Shown here piece by piece: positions 9,892 through 15,818 of a stretch of 36,187 nucleotides of DNA. The notes below the pieces were generated by a model. That model worked only from the letters and a program-made list of their open reading frames with translations, was not told where the DNA came from and searched no databases. The DNA is from an archaeon (GTDB taxonomy: Archaea > B1Sed10-29 > WALL01 > JAGHAM01). Numbering within the stretch: position 1 is the first letter of the stretch; each line of letters begins with the position of its first letter. The stretch covers positions 1-36,187 of the forward strand of contig JAIOSL010000007.1 in assembly GCA_021107635.1 (NCBI GenBank). Reading direction: 5' to 3'. Made by a program: the position numbers and the translations under genes.

Positions 9892-9967
9892 TAAAAATCA
9901 CTGGTTGTTAATGTTTTTTGATTATGAATGAAACTTTTATTAATTGTTTACTCTAAATAACTCAATT

Positions 9968-11215
9968 ATGAACCGTGAACAAAAAATAATGCTTTTATTC
10001 CTGATTTTATTGCTTTTAATATCCACAGCAATAATCTTCTTAATTCCGGAAAAACCAAAAAAATGCTCTCAAGCCAACCCAGAATTATGTGACAGGAGCT
10101 GCAACTCAACTGAAGAGTGTGAATTTTATTGCTCTTTAGGATGTTTAAATGACAATCAAGAACACTCTGAAATTGGTTTGCAATGCGAAAGAACGCCTTG
10201 TCATACTTGTTATTGCGAAGAAGGTACTTGCGTTAATCATGCCAAGCTTTTAGACGAAGCAATTGCTACCAAAAATGCCTCTATCTGCGAGCTCTCACCC
10301 AACCAACAATGCAAAGAAGCATGCTTAAAAGATTTGGAAGTGGAAATGCAACCTCCAGAATTAGTGCTGTCAACTAACAGCATTGAATACAATCAAAATC
10401 AAGAAATTATTTTCACAATAAACAACACTGGCCAAAACACAATAGTATTCTTCAAAGGATTCAGTGAAATTGCTCTAGCTAACGATCCTTCTTGGGAAGA
10501 AATTTTCAACATGCATTACAGTGAATTCAAGGATAACTGCGACAAAGTTCATTCTGAAGGATGCGCGCTAATCCATGTTGAACCAGGAGAAAGCTATAAC
10601 TTAAGTTTTGTCTCTCCTGATGTTGTTGGAGATTATTCTATCATGATAAAAATAAACGAACAAATGTTTCAATCAAATCCGTTTACAGTTAAACCAGATC
10701 CAAAAGTAACTCTGACCACAACTAAAGAAGTTTACGCTATCAGAGAAACCATTGAAGCAACATTTAACTCTGAAACAGAAGTAAATCTTGAAATCTACTC
10801 AAAGCCCACTCTTTTATTCCTAGATAATGATTCTTGGAAGCCTTTAGCCTATTACTGCACTTCTGCATCTCCTTGCTTTGAAAACCTTACCAGTTGTGGT
10901 CTAGTACCACCTTCTCCAAATTATGTTCCAATATGCCTTAACCAAACATATGCAAAAGAAATGCAAATGGACTGGCCTAACAAATGGAATTGGAAGCAAA
11001 CAAACTGCTCAAACAAAGAAATCACATGCATGCCAATCCCAGAAAGCGGAGAAACAGCAGAAACGATTCAATGGCAGTGCTGTGAATGTCAGGATGCTCT
11101 TCTAGGGACGTATAAAATAGTTTTCCAGTATACTCTTGATTGTCCTGGTGAAATATTTGGCAAAGGAACCGAAATTAAAACCGCAGAAACAGAATTTGAG
11201 ATAATTTCAACATAA
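9968..11215 (+). CDS. Cys-rich membrane-anchored surface protein, paralog A (domain order Cys-A-B)
   Basis: 415 residues. An N-terminal hydrophobic helix (MLLFLILLLLISTAIIFLI) is a signal anchor or signal peptide. A dense cysteine block follows (DRSCNSTEECEFYCSLGC ... PCHTCYCEEGTC), then two Ig-like beta domains. Domain A has FNMHYSEFKDNC and CALIHVEPGES; domain B has KEVYAIRETIEATF and LGTYKIVFQYTLDC. Many N-x-S/T sequons suggest an extracellular location. ATG at 9968 is chosen over 9944 because a TATA-like acttttatta lies at about 9931-9940, which leaves the 9944 start too close. It is paralogous to the next gene but with the two Ig-like domains in the opposite order. No named family recognised. 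Confidence 0.8.
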   Translation: MNREQKIMLLFLILLLLISTAIIFLIPEKPKKCSQANPELCDRSCNSTEECEFYCSLGCLNDNQEHSEIGLQCERTPCHTCYCEEGTCVNHAKLLDEAIATKNASICELSPNQQCKEACLKDLEVEMQPPELVLSTNSIEYNQNQEIIFTINNTGQNTIVFFKGFSEIALANDPSWEEIFNMHYSEFKDNCDKVHSEGCALIHVEPGESYNLSFVSPDVVGDYSIMIKINEQMFQSNPFTVKPDPKVTLTTTKEVYAIRETIEATFNSETEVNLEIYSKPTLLFLDNDSWKPLAYYCTSASPCFENLTSCGLVPPSPNYVPICLNQTYAKEMQMDWPNKWNWKQTNCSNKEITCMPIPESGETAETIQWQCCECQDALLGTYKIVFQYTLDCPGEIFGKGTEIKTAETEFEIIST

Positions 11216-11247: not shown

Positions 11248-12597
11248 ATGCAATTGAACAAAAGCCAACAACAACTAGCAATCATACTAATTTTATTAAT
11301 ACTCTCACTAGGCTTAACTTTTTTCACACTGTCAAGCGATTGCAGACCAGATAACTGTCAGGACTGCAGTAAATCCTGTAACTCAAACAATGATTGTCAA
11401 CAATTCTGTCCCTGTGGATGCATAGCTAAAGGCCAGCAACCAAATAAAGCATGTGAAAATTCTTTACCTTGTGATATCTGCGCGTGCATCGAGGGGGAAT
11501 GTCAAAGCCAGAACGTTTTACTCTCAAAAGCTTTAGAAGCTAAAGACTTAACAAAATGTTTAGAATCAACAGATCCATTTTGCTTAGCTTATTGTCAAGA
11601 AAAAGTAGAAGCAGCAATAAATCAAGGACATGTTGTGGTTAGCACACCTAGAAAAGAATATTCTCCAAGAGAGAATATAACCTTTCTAGCAACAAATCAA
11701 TTAGAATCAATCTATTACACAACATTTTCTCTGGAATTTTATCAACAAGGACAAAAAATGCCAGTACATTTCTTAACACCCTCCTGTTCAGATTCAACAG
11801 AATGTCTTGACCCTTCTGCTCAATGTTCTCCTTTGCTTTCAGGTCAAACAATCAACTTCACTTGGAATCAATTACTCTTTGATTTTGATGAATATATCTC
11901 TCAAAAACCAGCAGGGCTTGGAACTTACAAACTAACTTTTTGCTATTCACAATCCTGTGATTCAAAAAAACAAAAATGCAGTTCCACTGAATTCAAAATA
12001 ACCCGATCGACCATTCAAGCTTCAACAACTTACATAAAAGATGAAGGAGAACCAATGATTGTAACTCTGGAAAACATTGGTTCAAAAGAACAAGCTATCC
12101 AACCTTACTTTATGAAACTTGTTTTACATGATGGGACATACACTAAAGAAGATTTCCTGAACGACTATCAAGAATTTGAGAACGCTTGTTTTGAACAAGA
12201 AAAAGATCCTTACAGACAACCTTCAAACAGTTGTACTAAAATTATTCTAGAACCTGGCCAGAAAGAAGAGATTACGTTGGATAACACTTATCCAATTGGA
12301 AAATATCGTCTTGCTACTATGGCAGAAAACCGAGTGGTATACTCAAACGACTTTAAAATTGTCGTAAACAAACAAGCATATCAAGAAAATGAAAAATACT
12401 GTGAAGAAAACACTGATTGTGCAGCATTATTGACCAAACAAACCTATTGTTGTCCTAACGTGACAGGAGAATGCTTGAACAAGATCTCTCCAAGAATTCT
12501 CGCACCGTTTGAGGACGAGGAATGCTCTTTCGTGTCCTGTCCAGAAACGCAACCCAAACAATGCAGTTGCATTAATAATCATTGCCAACAAGCATAA
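11248..12597 (+). CDS. Cys-rich membrane-anchored surface protein, paralog B (domain order Cys-B-A-Cys)
   Basis: 449 residues. It has an N-terminal membrane helix (LAIILILLILSLGLTFF) and a cysteine block matching paralog A (KSCNSNNDCQQFCPCGC ... PCDICACIEGEC). A B-type domain comes first (RKEYSPRENITFLAT ... LGTYKLTFCYSQSCD), then an A-type domain (FLNDYQEFENAC, CTKIILEPGQK, YSNDFKIVV). An extra C-terminal cysteine block (TYCCPNVTGEC ... CSCINNHC) is absent from paralog A. A 32-base spacer with a TATA-like aacttttttaac and a short pyrimidine-rich leader separates it from the upstream gene, so it may have its own promoter. An exported, disulfide-bonded surface role is inferred. Confidence 0.8.
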   Translation: MQLNKSQQQLAIILILLILSLGLTFFTLSSDCRPDNCQDCSKSCNSNNDCQQFCPCGCIAKGQQPNKACENSLPCDICACIEGECQSQNVLLSKALEAKDLTKCLESTDPFCLAYCQEKVEAAINQGHVVVSTPRKEYSPRENITFLATNQLESIYYTTFSLEFYQQGQKMPVHFLTPSCSDSTECLDPSAQCSPLLSGQTINFTWNQLLFDFDEYISQKPAGLGTYKLTFCYSQSCDSKKQKCSSTEFKITRSTIQASTTYIKDEGEPMIVTLENIGSKEQAIQPYFMKLVLHDGTYTKEDFLNDYQEFENACFEQEKDPYRQPSNSCTKIILEPGQKEEITLDNTYPIGKYRLATMAENRVVYSNDFKIVVNKQAYQENEKYCEENTDCAALLTKQTYCCPNVTGECLNKISPRILAPFEDEECSFVSCPETQPKQCSCINNHCQQA

Positions 12598-12630: not shown

Positions 12631-13227
12631 ATGGAATTGTTGACAGATCAAGACGGCCAACTGCTTGTGCACTTAGCAAGAGAATCAATCCAAGCATATT
12701 TAACTGAAAACAGAATAGTGAAACCTCCAGAGCGGGATCAAATGCTCAAAGAAAAACGCGGCGTTTTTTGCACCCTGAAAAACTATGTGACTGGCAATCT
12801 TCGTGGCTGCATAGGCCTGCCTTATCCTGAAATGCCTTTAGGACAGGCAATCGTTGAAGCAGCAATATCCTCTGCAACCAGCGACCCACGGTTTTCTGCT
12901 ATGTCATTAGATGAATTTGAGGAAGTTGTGATAGAGGTGACTGTGCTTACTCCTCCAGAAAAGATTGAAACACTGCGTGAAAATCTACCCTCTAAAATTG
13001 AAATAGGAAAACATGGATTAATTATCAAAAAAGGTTTTAATTCTGGTTTACTTCTACCTCAGGTAGCTGAAGAACAAGAATGTAATCCAGAGCAGTTCCT
13101 AGACATGACTTGTTGTAAAGCAGGATTGTCTTCTGGATGCTGGAAACAAGAAGATTGCGAAGTGTTTTCTTTCCAAGGACAAATATTCAAAGAATTGTCT
13201 CCACATGGACAAATAATTAAAAAGTAG
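12631..13227 (+). CDS. AMMECR1 domain protein
   Basis: 198 residues, the usual length for archaeal AMMECR1 proteins. KRGVFCTLKNYVTGNLRGCIGLPYP contains the near-invariant LRGCIG. SSATSDPRFSAMSLDEFEEVVIEVTVLTPPE, the GKHGLIIKKGFNSGLLLPQVAEE segment and a C-terminal SGCWKQ...VFSFQGQIF complete the domain. Its molecular function is unknown; in many archaea it neighbours radical SAM (AmmeMemoRadiSam) and MEMO genes, which are not present here. A TATA-like aacttttatttac precedes it by about 30 bases, in the same form as before paralog B. It converges on the NrdD-like gene. Confidence 0.92.
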   Translation: MELLTDQDGQLLVHLARESIQAYLTENRIVKPPERDQMLKEKRGVFCTLKNYVTGNLRGCIGLPYPEMPLGQAIVEAAISSATSDPRFSAMSLDEFEEVVIEVTVLTPPEKIETLRENLPSKIEIGKHGLIIKKGFNSGLLLPQVAEEQECNPEQFLDMTCCKAGLSSGCWKQEDCEVFSFQGQIFKELSPHGQIIKK

Positions 13228-13331: not shown

Positions 13332-15305
13332 CTAAGGACCGCTCTTAGTGCCTAAAGTGAAAGATAATGTGCTCTCTTTTTTCAAGAGGTCATTAATGGT
13401 GTTTGGTAAGATTTCCCAGTCTTTCAGGAAAAGTTTTGCAGCTCCATTACAGTATTGTTGGAGTTTTATCTCAGTTTCAATCCATTTTTTGGAATCTTGA
13501 TGGTTATGACTGAAACCGTTCAATGGATACACGTCTTTTACTCCAAAACGATTCTCGTTCATTTTACTGAAACGAGCAGACGCTTTAAGTGCATCAAGTC
13601 TGCCAGAATATAAGAAAACTTCTTCGCTTTCGTTAAAGCTTTCTATCTTACGATTTATGTAGGCAAGAAGCCTATCTGCAAATATGACTCCTTCTTCGCG
13701 ATTAATTTCTTTTCCAGTGTATTCTTTCACCGCGTTATCTAAGCCTATGACATTTACTATACTAGGAGCATTTTCCAAAGAATAGTACTCTTCTGTTCCA
13801 AAGTTTTGTGTGAGGAAAGGCAAAGTTTTATCCTTGTATAACCTTCTTTCAATAATTTTTTTCTTGCTTTCATGGGTTTTTTTGGCTGCTTCTAGTGCTT
13901 TGTCTAATTGATTGAAAAATTGCGTGTCTTCTTTGCTTGTTAACGCGATTCTCGGCAAATTAATGGAAACTTCTTGTAAAATGCCTGTTCTTAGAGTATT
14001 AAACCATTTTTTGTCTTTACCTGGCAAAATATGATTTGGAAATATCATATTCAAGTTTTGTCCAAAACGCTTGTTCCTAAGATTCAAAAAAGTCAGTTCA
14101 TTTTTCTCTAAAAACTTGTTCATAGCTGTTTCTATCTGAGGAGGAAGATTTTTATCTCTTATTTTAATTACTATGCGAGGCATTTTGAATGGAGTGCCCC
14201 TCGCATCACCTTCTGCCATTGTTTCCAAGAAAATAGTAAGGAAACGCAAACTTTCGCGCTCATAATCTACGTAAGTATCTTGCCCTGTCAATCCTTTTGG
14301 CAGAATAGCTTTTTCTTTGTTAAAGAAAGGTGGAGTTTCCAACTCAAAGTTTAAAGAGGATTTTGCGAGAGACCCTCTAATAGCATAAATTTGATTAAGT
14401 TCATATAAAAAGCTTTGAATCATTTGCTTGACGTCTTCTCTGCTTTTGTTAATAGTGTATGGAGCAATGAAAGTGTTGAAGAAATCAAAGCTTTGTCCTC
14501 CAGACAAGTGTGTTTCTCCAGAAATTAAAACACGTAAAGCATGACTTATTGCTACAGAAGCATGTTTTGCAGGACCTGTAACATTAGTGAATTTACCTGT
14601 GCCATCAGTCATAACTCCATTCTTCAAGAACCATCTCAAGTCGTTCTGTAAGCTTGTTGGACGAGTTGCAAAGTAAGGCAAGTCATGAATATGAATAGCT
14701 CCAATCAAATGTTCTTTTGAAACTTCTTGTGGAAGAATACTAACTAATGCATATTCTTCTGTTATCGCATCTGCAAACTTTTTGTGAATAACCTCTGGAT
14801 TCACTGGGCTCTCCTTTATCTTACGAGTTACATCATAAATTGGAAGCCCAAGACGCGTATACTCTTTTTTTGCTTGCAGATACTTGCGCTCAAGTAGTTT
14901 AGCATTAACCATTTCTCTTATCAATGGAGCAGAAATGTAACGCAATTCTAACCTACGGATATCCGATTCCACTTCTCCAGCTATTTCCACACACACGCTT
15001 TTCGCAAGAGTTGTTTCTCTTATGAGCGATTCTACAATCCTCTCTTTGCTGAAAGAAGTTAAAATGCCTTCTGAAGTTCTAACATAAACCTTGTGATAAT
15101 TTTCGAACTTGTTTGCTGCCTCTTCATTTCTACTTCTCAATTCTTGAATTATCCTATCATTGGTTTCCTCTTCAGTCATCGCTGGTTTTATATGTTCTTG
15201 CAAACCCAAAGCGACTTCGCTAGCAAGCCAAAAGCTGACTCCTGCTTTAATACACTTTTCTTGAATAATTTTGGGATTAAACTTAGAAGAACCCCCAGAA
15301 TCCAT
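13332..15305 (-). CDS. NrdD-like (anaerobic ribonucleotide reductase family) protein lacking radical residues
   Basis: 657 residues. The N-terminal 160 residues hold ATP-cone-like sequence (KVYVRTSEGILTSFSKERIVESL ... LQAKKEYTRLG). The body follows class III reductase landmarks: IGAIHIHDLPYFATRP, LSGGQSFDFFNTFIAPY, GTPFKMPRIVIKI, EVSINLPRIAL and NVIGLDNAVKEYTG. Only three cysteines occur (about 18, 105, 619). The usual NCL position in HIHDL...RPNCL reads RPTSL, the usual CCR region before INLPRI has no cysteine, and the chain ends at STLSFTLGTKSGP, before the zinc and RVxGYxG glycyl-radical domain. Neither other minus-strand frame downstream encodes that tail. It cannot be a normal class III enzyme; a regulatory or nucleotide-binding role is a guess. 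No nrdG activase is nearby. Confidence 0.75.
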   Translation of the reverse strand: MDSGGSSKFNPKIIQEKCIKAGVSFWLASEVALGLQEHIKPAMTEEETNDRIIQELRSRNEEAANKFENYHKVYVRTSEGILTSFSKERIVESLIRETTLAKSVCVEIAGEVESDIRRLELRYISAPLIREMVNAKLLERKYLQAKKEYTRLGLPIYDVTRKIKESPVNPEVIHKKFADAITEEYALVSILPQEVSKEHLIGAIHIHDLPYFATRPTSLQNDLRWFLKNGVMTDGTGKFTNVTGPAKHASVAISHALRVLISGETHLSGGQSFDFFNTFIAPYTINKSREDVKQMIQSFLYELNQIYAIRGSLAKSSLNFELETPPFFNKEKAILPKGLTGQDTYVDYERESLRFLTIFLETMAEGDARGTPFKMPRIVIKIRDKNLPPQIETAMNKFLEKNELTFLNLRNKRFGQNLNMIFPNHILPGKDKKWFNTLRTGILQEVSINLPRIALTSKEDTQFFNQLDKALEAAKKTHESKKKIIERRLYKDKTLPFLTQNFGTEEYYSLENAPSIVNVIGLDNAVKEYTGKEINREEGVIFADRLLAYINRKIESFNESEEVFLYSGRLDALKASARFSKMNENRFGVKDVYPLNGFSHNHQDSKKWIETEIKLQQYCNGAAKLFLKDWEILPNTINDLLKKESTLSFTLGTKSGP

Positions 15306-15328
15306 AACATGATTTTTATAGATGAAAG

Positions 15329-15374
15329 TTTATAATTGTAACAGCGAACAGGCCTAAAAGTTCGGTTTTCGAAC
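15329..15374. promoter_or_regulatory. Shared nrdD-like/Lrp promoter with short inverted repeat
   Basis: tttataat at 15329-15336 reads as a TATA box both ways. It lies about 27 bases from the NrdD-like ATG (15305, predicted leaderless) and about 50 from the Lrp ATG (15387), whose start site would be near 15360. Exactly there lies GTTCG-gtttt-CGAAC (15360-15374), a 5-base inverted repeat that may be an operator for the Lrp/AsnC protein. A G-rich site (aggggga) sits before the Lrp start. The repeat arms are short, so the operator call is tentative. Confidence 0.4.
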
Positions 15375-15386
15375 CAGGGGGATTTC

Positions 15387-15818
15387 ATGGAACTAGATGC
15401 AATAGACCAAAAAATACTTGAACTTCTCTCAAAAAATTCAAGAATGTCCTATTCAGACTTAGCCAGACATTTCGGTTTTTCTGATGTAGCTATTCGCAAA
15501 AGAGTGGACAAACTGGTCGAAAACCAAATAATCACAAAATTCACAACTCTCGTCAACTACGGCAAACTAGGAAAAAATGTATCAGCATTTATATTCTTCA
15601 AAACACGCTCAGATAAAACACAAGAGATAGCCGAACAACTGCTTGCAGTAGAAGGCATACACGATGTTTACATTTCACTTGGAGTATATGACATCATCGC
15701 AAAAGCATATTGCTCAGATGTCACCGAACTCAAGCAATTAACAGAATCCAAACTAACAGATATCAACGGAATAATTGAAGTGAAACCATCAATAGTTTTC
15801 AGTGAGGTAGAATCGTAA
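15387..15818 (+). CDS. Lrp/AsnC family transcriptional regulator
   Basis: 143 residues, standard length. The N-terminal HTH is MELDAIDQKILELLSKNSRMSYSDLARHFGFSDVAIRKRVDKLVENQIITKF, classic Lrp/AsnC (ELDxxDxxIL, then DLA...VxxRVxxLxxxGII). A RAM/ligand-binding domain follows (AFIFFKTRSDKTQEIAEQLLAVEGIHDVYISLGVYDIIAKAY). Members bind amino acids or cofactors and form dimers to octamers. It heads an operon: its stop overlaps the UPF0201 start (TAATG), then ATGA into the exported-protein gene, then elp3. It is divergent from the NrdD-like gene across a shared promoter and could regulate both. Confidence 0.93.
   Translation: MELDAIDQKILELLSKNSRMSYSDLARHFGFSDVAIRKRVDKLVENQIITKFTTLVNYGKLGKNVSAFIFFKTRSDKTQEIAEQLLAVEGIHDVYISLGVYDIIAKAYCSDVTELKQLTESKLTDINGIIEVKPSIVFSEVES

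Follow-up and report, generated by a model that had tools for sequence, protein, structure and literature searches.

The window analysed here, 36,187 nucleotides of archaeal DNA, contains a gene derived from nrdD, which encodes the class III ribonucleotide reductase (RNR), and raises the question of what such a protein does once the parts needed for radical chemistry have been lost. The reading frame begins with ATG and stays open for only 8 codons further upstream. Pfam NRDD matched residues 168–623 (2.5e-65; profile positions 7–471 of 562) and the ATP-cone family PF03477 matched residues 74–146 (2.4e-6; 28.5 bits, above the cut-off of 25.8), and the NCBIfam NrdD equivalog gave 202 bits, below its cut-off of 326. 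Searches against the Pfam and NCBIfam families revealed no HTH domain; TIGR00244 (NrdR, a zinc ribbon plus ATP-cone) was not among the families matched by the protein, and none was found in its genome. A preliminary description, made from the sequence alone, had recognized long NrdD landmarks, and the HIHD, SGGQ and NLPR motifs and the NRDD barrel are indeed present. It had also proposed a comparison with class III enzymes: an AlphaFold2 model of the protein (pLDDT 70, pTM 0.62) had class III RNRs as its best matches, with TM-scores of 0.5–0.7 (Foldseek E 1e-19 against 9d3x), and the losses described below were seen in the alignment. The features discussed are collected in Table 1.

Table 1. 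Features of the window and, in the last two rows, of HTH-fused relatives at other loci (L numbers)
Feature	Position	Strand	Basis
nrdD-derived pseudoenzyme gene, 657 aa	13332..15305	-	ORF; Pfam NRDD and ATP-cone
NRDD barrel without C-terminal zinc and glycyl-radical domain	13437..14804	-	Pfam; fold match to class III RNRs
Former thiyl-radical (Cys290) loop, no cysteine	14016..14066	-	alignment
Glu302 codon, equivalent of the adenine-contacting specificity-site residue	14400..14402	-	alignment
Ser218 codon at T4-Cys79 position	14652..14654	-	alignment
Site of E-N-x-N substrate-binding flap deletion	14778..14831	-	alignment
Second ATP-cone, VRTS type, residues 71–158	14832..15095	-	PF03477
Truncated first ATP-cone, residues 8–70	15096..15284	-	alignment with tandem-cone enzymes L046–L048
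TATA box of dead nrdD, ~30 nt before ATG	15328..15335	-	conserved in orthologues
Palindrome GGTTCGAAAACCGAAC between lrp and dead nrdD, candidate Lrp operator	15360..15375	.	
Lrp/AsnC-family regulator, divergent neighbour	15387..15818	+	PF13404, PF01037
HTH-fused dead NrdDs	L115 5131-7455; L116 4750-6972; L117 5335-7590		
HTH-fused dead NrdDs	L124 4870-6969; L125 4673-6673; also L133–L141		

To compare the catalytic parts, 14 copies from Diapherotrites were aligned with 21 active-type NrdDs and with 13 relatives of the HTH-fused kind. The window protein has exactly three cysteines, C18, C105 and C619, and none of them, as had been claimed, lies at the equivalents of T4 Cys79 or Cys290. The cysteine of the RP-N-C-L segment, reported beforehand as replaced, aligns with Ser218 in the Cys79 column. 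Because the Thermotoga NrdD likewise has no suitably placed cysteine at this site (PMC4390871), its loss would not by itself rule out activity. The Cys290 loop reads NMIFPNHIL, and no cysteine was found there in the window protein or its order-level orthologues; the earlier account was right about the missing cysteine but did not go far enough, as the loop is also reshaped. A further loss had been overlooked: the E-N-x-N flap, which forms part of substrate binding in solved class III enzymes (PMC11226230, PMC12662201), is missing from all 14 dead proteins, whereas N-x-N is kept in all 21 active-type NrdDs aligned. The chain stops just short of the zinc site, and the NRDD profile match breaks off accordingly, which agrees with the claim that the protein ends before the zinc/glycyl-radical domain. 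No other frame restores the tail, also as described, no convincing glycyl motif being present in any frame of the window, and no separate glycyl segment was found in the genome, where PF13597 matched only the dead gene and one complete NrdD.

Other NrdD-like proteins with missing parts were seen outside this family. An NrdD of G040 (L047 3634-5916) has both flap and glycyl domain and no cysteine at the Cys79 and Cys290 positions. Two more NrdD-like proteins without a glycyl domain occur in other archaea, one of them very diverged (L030/L122, G037) and the other cut at its N-terminus by the contig end (L031/L123, G028).

All 11 genomes of the order (52–72% identity) have the truncated NrdD, as do 17 of the 19 examined for the phylum Diapherotrites; G015 has a match to an active-type NrdD only, and G016 has none. 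Among the relatives that carry a name, most are Candidatus Diapherotrites and some are labelled DPANN group archaeon, archaeon or Micrarchaeota. These relatives were recovered by a DNA scan with an alignment, the same scan with a single sequence giving none. A contig end cuts two or three of the 17 copies, so that the loss of the glycyl domain was seen directly in ~14, and wherever the C-terminus is visible no glycyl domain is present. A sequencing error or frameshift is ruled out, since the orthologues have the same end and the same losses. Intact close homologues at the locus and a separate gene for the glycyl domain were searched for, and neither was found. The suggested dN/dS test yielded a low dN (~0.2 between genera), which indicates constrained amino-acid change, but no usable ratio, because synonymous sites are saturated; the proteins of G000 and G001 are 72% identical, more than most of their neighbours. 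With orthologues in 17 of 19 genomes, no visible glycyl domain in any and a complete NrdD and NrdG elsewhere in the genome, the proposal of a catalytically dead, maintained paralogue is upheld, and we consider the gene almost certainly a maintained pseudoenzyme.

What has been conserved differs from what has been lost. The second ATP-cone, which is of the VRTS type and has no canonical VxKRDG motif, is the best conserved large domain of the dead NrdD, with a mean identity of 73% among 10 orthologues and 64% among 14. The former thiyl-loop region shows a mean identity of 46% in ten dead orthologues, and residues 380–432 around the old loop rank with the family's least conserved stretches. In six active Diapherotrites NrdDs the corresponding values are 49% for the second cone and 75% for the thiyl-loop region, a comparison that is indicative, as these six belong to another NrdD type. 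Moreover, Glu302, the equivalent of the adenine-contacting specificity-site residue Glu181 of T4 NrdD (PMC12662201), is kept in all 14 dead proteins, in which the position of T4 Gln114 is an invariant Arg258. The first cone has lost its N-terminal beta-hairpin, and its region weakly matches the N-terminus of 2-phosphoglycerate kinase. A nucleotide sensor acting through an ATP-cone-like N-terminus, as first suggested, is thus plausible: the conservation of the second cone favours it, but the missing hairpin of the first cone and the VRTS type of the second do not.

If the protein is not a reductase, it might still serve one. The host genome contains one other NRDD gene, which is complete and adjoins an NrdG2-type activase, so both genes that the preliminary description had recommended looking for were found; PF02867 (class I/II-type RNR) had no match in this genome. 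Within the order, 8 of 11 genomes encode an active NrdD as well. In three relatives, G001, G003 and G008, the dead copy is the sole NRDD match, and a PF02867 class I/II-type RNR is present instead; these genomes are 92%, 89% and 61% complete, respectively, and an active NrdD could have been missed, least likely in G001. The RNR of G001 adjoins a BtuR-like adenosyltransferase and is therefore probably class II. The protein could be a subunit without catalysis of its own that pairs with an active RNR in mixed dimers and tunes its activity or specificity by binding nucleotides; this would account for the retained barrel and Glu302 and for the frequent company of an active NrdD, whose gene lies close to the dead one in G005 and G007. 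Yeast offers a parallel in Rnr4, a dead beta subunit that supports Rnr2. However, the dead gene is usually unlinked to active nrdD, and its retention in three relatives in which no active NrdD was detected means that it cannot simply be regarded as an accessory of NrdD; we regard a subunit role as rather unlikely. The same three genomes show that a Pfam NRDD match is no proof of class III RNR activity.

The surroundings of the gene are also conserved. The divergent lrp gene lies 81 bp away; the two had been said to share a promoter, and what they have in common is the intergenic region, not one promoter. The same Lrp/AsnC gene is the divergent partner in 12 of the 16 loci where that side is visible and was not seen in the other four (G008, G011, G014 and G018). 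The TATA box recurs as TTATA[A/T]A[C/T] in 9 of 9 orthologues with much the same spacing, somewhat wider in two whose start is uncertain. Palindromes similar to the candidate Lrp operator were found in G005, G007 and G010. The window's version is the only exact copy in its genome, with two further sites at two mismatches each; a regulon read from this palindrome was dropped, as the mismatch search did no better than the control. On its other side, the dead gene is convergent with an AMMECR1-family gene (12631-13227), next to tandem genes for paralogous cysteine-rich proteins that are probably secreted or membrane-anchored (9944-11215 and 11248-12597).

Among the orthologous loci, the dead gene lies near an nrdD operon (G005 and G007), near a class II-type RNR with BtuR (G001) and near a dCMP deaminase gene (G004 and G007). 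Several families also have recurrent neighbours encoding a LigT/ThpR-like phosphoesterase, a putative CCA transferase, Elp3, an RNA-binding protein and a CYTH protein. These neighbours could mean that the protein has been put to new use in RNA processing or translation, its NrdD ancestry being incidental. Streamlined archaeal genomes, however, can keep gene order without a common function, and the HTH-fused relatives described below point to RNR genes, which makes such a role improbable in our view.

Furthermore, an NrdG2 (TIGR02495) radical-SAM gene lies downstream of dead nrdD, intact in four loci and abutting in two; none was seen beside the gene in G000 and G001. The NrdG2-like proteins of G005 and G007 (L054 14317-14877 and L056 15167-15757) lack the CxxxCxxC cluster motif, and each forms a second pseudoenzyme beside the dead NrdD. 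We infer that an ancestral nrdD–nrdG pair stood here, whose reductase gave up its chemistry first and whose activase is now disappearing as well. The intact neighbours might suggest a glycyl-radical enzyme that takes its glycyl peptide from another gene and is activated by the adjoining NrdG2-like protein, and several relatives do have active NrdDs with the glycyl domain on a separate ORF. With both catalytic cysteines gone, the flap deleted, a separate glycyl segment missing from the window's genome, and NrdG2 absent beside the window gene and degenerate in G005/G007, this is very improbable. Loss of the catalytic parts would also be expected of a decaying pseudogene or an assembly error, a view that the orthologues already contradict and that reading frames still open in 17 Diapherotrites genomes, a conserved promoter and constrained amino-acid change leave with next to no likelihood.

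The split active NrdDs were found in several related Diapherotrites, with the glycyl-radical peptide as a short ORF directly downstream (L054 11212-13327, L056 11695-13815, L082 749-3002, and also L083, L084, L085 and L088). In G005 and G007 the glycyl ORF starts with MC[ND]E, and the large ORF before it ends inside the zinc loop; in G009 and G010 the glycyl ORF has an extra cysteine-rich stretch.

A parallel family was identified in other archaea, in which an ArsR-like HTH precedes a VRTS-type cone and an NRDD core. In the phylum of G021, which appears to be Thermoproteota with Thaumarchaeota, 85 of the 121 genomes gave matches to this type, part of them to ordinary NrdDs. All 13 full HTH-fused proteins aligned lack Cys79, Cys290 and the flap. 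An RNR catalytic gene lies directly downstream on the same strand in 16 of 34 HTH-fused loci, class III in five and class I/II-type in eleven; one of the latter, which served as query, was verified as PF02867 with Pfam. In the best tree the HTH-fused proteins form one clade and the Diapherotrites proteins another, and a single dead clade is not rejected (p-AU 0.47). Gutted NrdDs may have arisen more than once. None of the 19 Diapherotrites genomes has NrdR (TIGR00244); in the phylum of G021 it exceeds its cut-off in 5 of 121. We found no paper on dead or HTH-fused NrdDs in the open literature, most subscription journals lying outside it.

Taken together, the dead NrdD is gutted yet conserved, keeps its promoter and its usual Lrp neighbour, and has been retained through a change of RNR type. 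The best explanation, to which we give an even chance, is that it is an RNR-derived pseudoenzyme acting as a nucleotide-sensing regulator of dNTP supply, because this reading best links the well-kept cone and the independence from active NrdD with the Lrp neighbour and with HTH-fused relatives next to RNR genes. Its origin would be the duplication of an archaeal NrdD that had two ATP-cones in tandem, the second being of VRTS type. One duplicate would then have lost both catalytic cysteines, the substrate flap and the zinc/glycyl domain but kept the barrel, the VRTS-type cone and the glutamate of the specificity site. This protein would bind nucleotides and sense their pool, and a shift in its shape or oligomeric state would control dNTP supply through target genes. 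Its DNA-binding partner would probably be a separate protein, with the divergent Lrp protein as the first candidate; gutted NrdDs of this kind in other archaea have a DNA-binding domain of their own. The strongest regulatory support comes from outside the locus, where the position of HTH-fused dead NrdDs upstream of RNR genes suggests control of those genes. Against a regulator stand the states of the two cones already noted, the absence of a DNA-binding domain in the protein itself, the 4 of 16 loci without Lrp, the palindrome's performance at control level, the best tree's placement of the HTH-fused family in a separate clade (with one clade not rejected) and the RNA-processing genes as other stable neighbours.

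To our knowledge, little is known about how dNTP synthesis is controlled in archaea without NrdR. An RNR-derived pseudoenzyme in nearly all sampled Diapherotrites, with an HTH-fused form elsewhere, is a concrete candidate for this control and a case of an essential enzyme apparently reused as a sensor. More tentatively, and at somewhat less than an even chance, NrdR-less archaea may have made RNR its own regulator, with gutted NrdDs, HTH-fused or paired with Lrp, reading (d)NTPs and setting RNR transcription whichever RNR type is present.

In comparison with known systems, the dead protein resembles class III NrdD (PF13597; 9d3x, 8p23, 1h78) in its ATP-cone, its ten-stranded barrel, its HIHD, SGGQ and NLPR motifs and its specificity-site Glu, and differs in having no Cys79, Cys290, NxN flap, zinc domain or glycyl domain. 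With NrdR, the ATP-cone repressor of RNR genes (TIGR00244), it would share the use of an ATP-cone as nucleotide sensor in dNTP control; unlike NrdR, it has no NrdR zinc ribbon, is far larger and is made from a whole NrdD. The HTH-fused dead NrdDs are alike in their VRTS-type cone and in an NRDD core without both cysteines and the flap, whereas, unlike the Diapherotrites protein, they carry an N-terminal ArsR-like HTH, in many cases retain zinc-ribbon remnants and frequently have an RNR gene immediately downstream.
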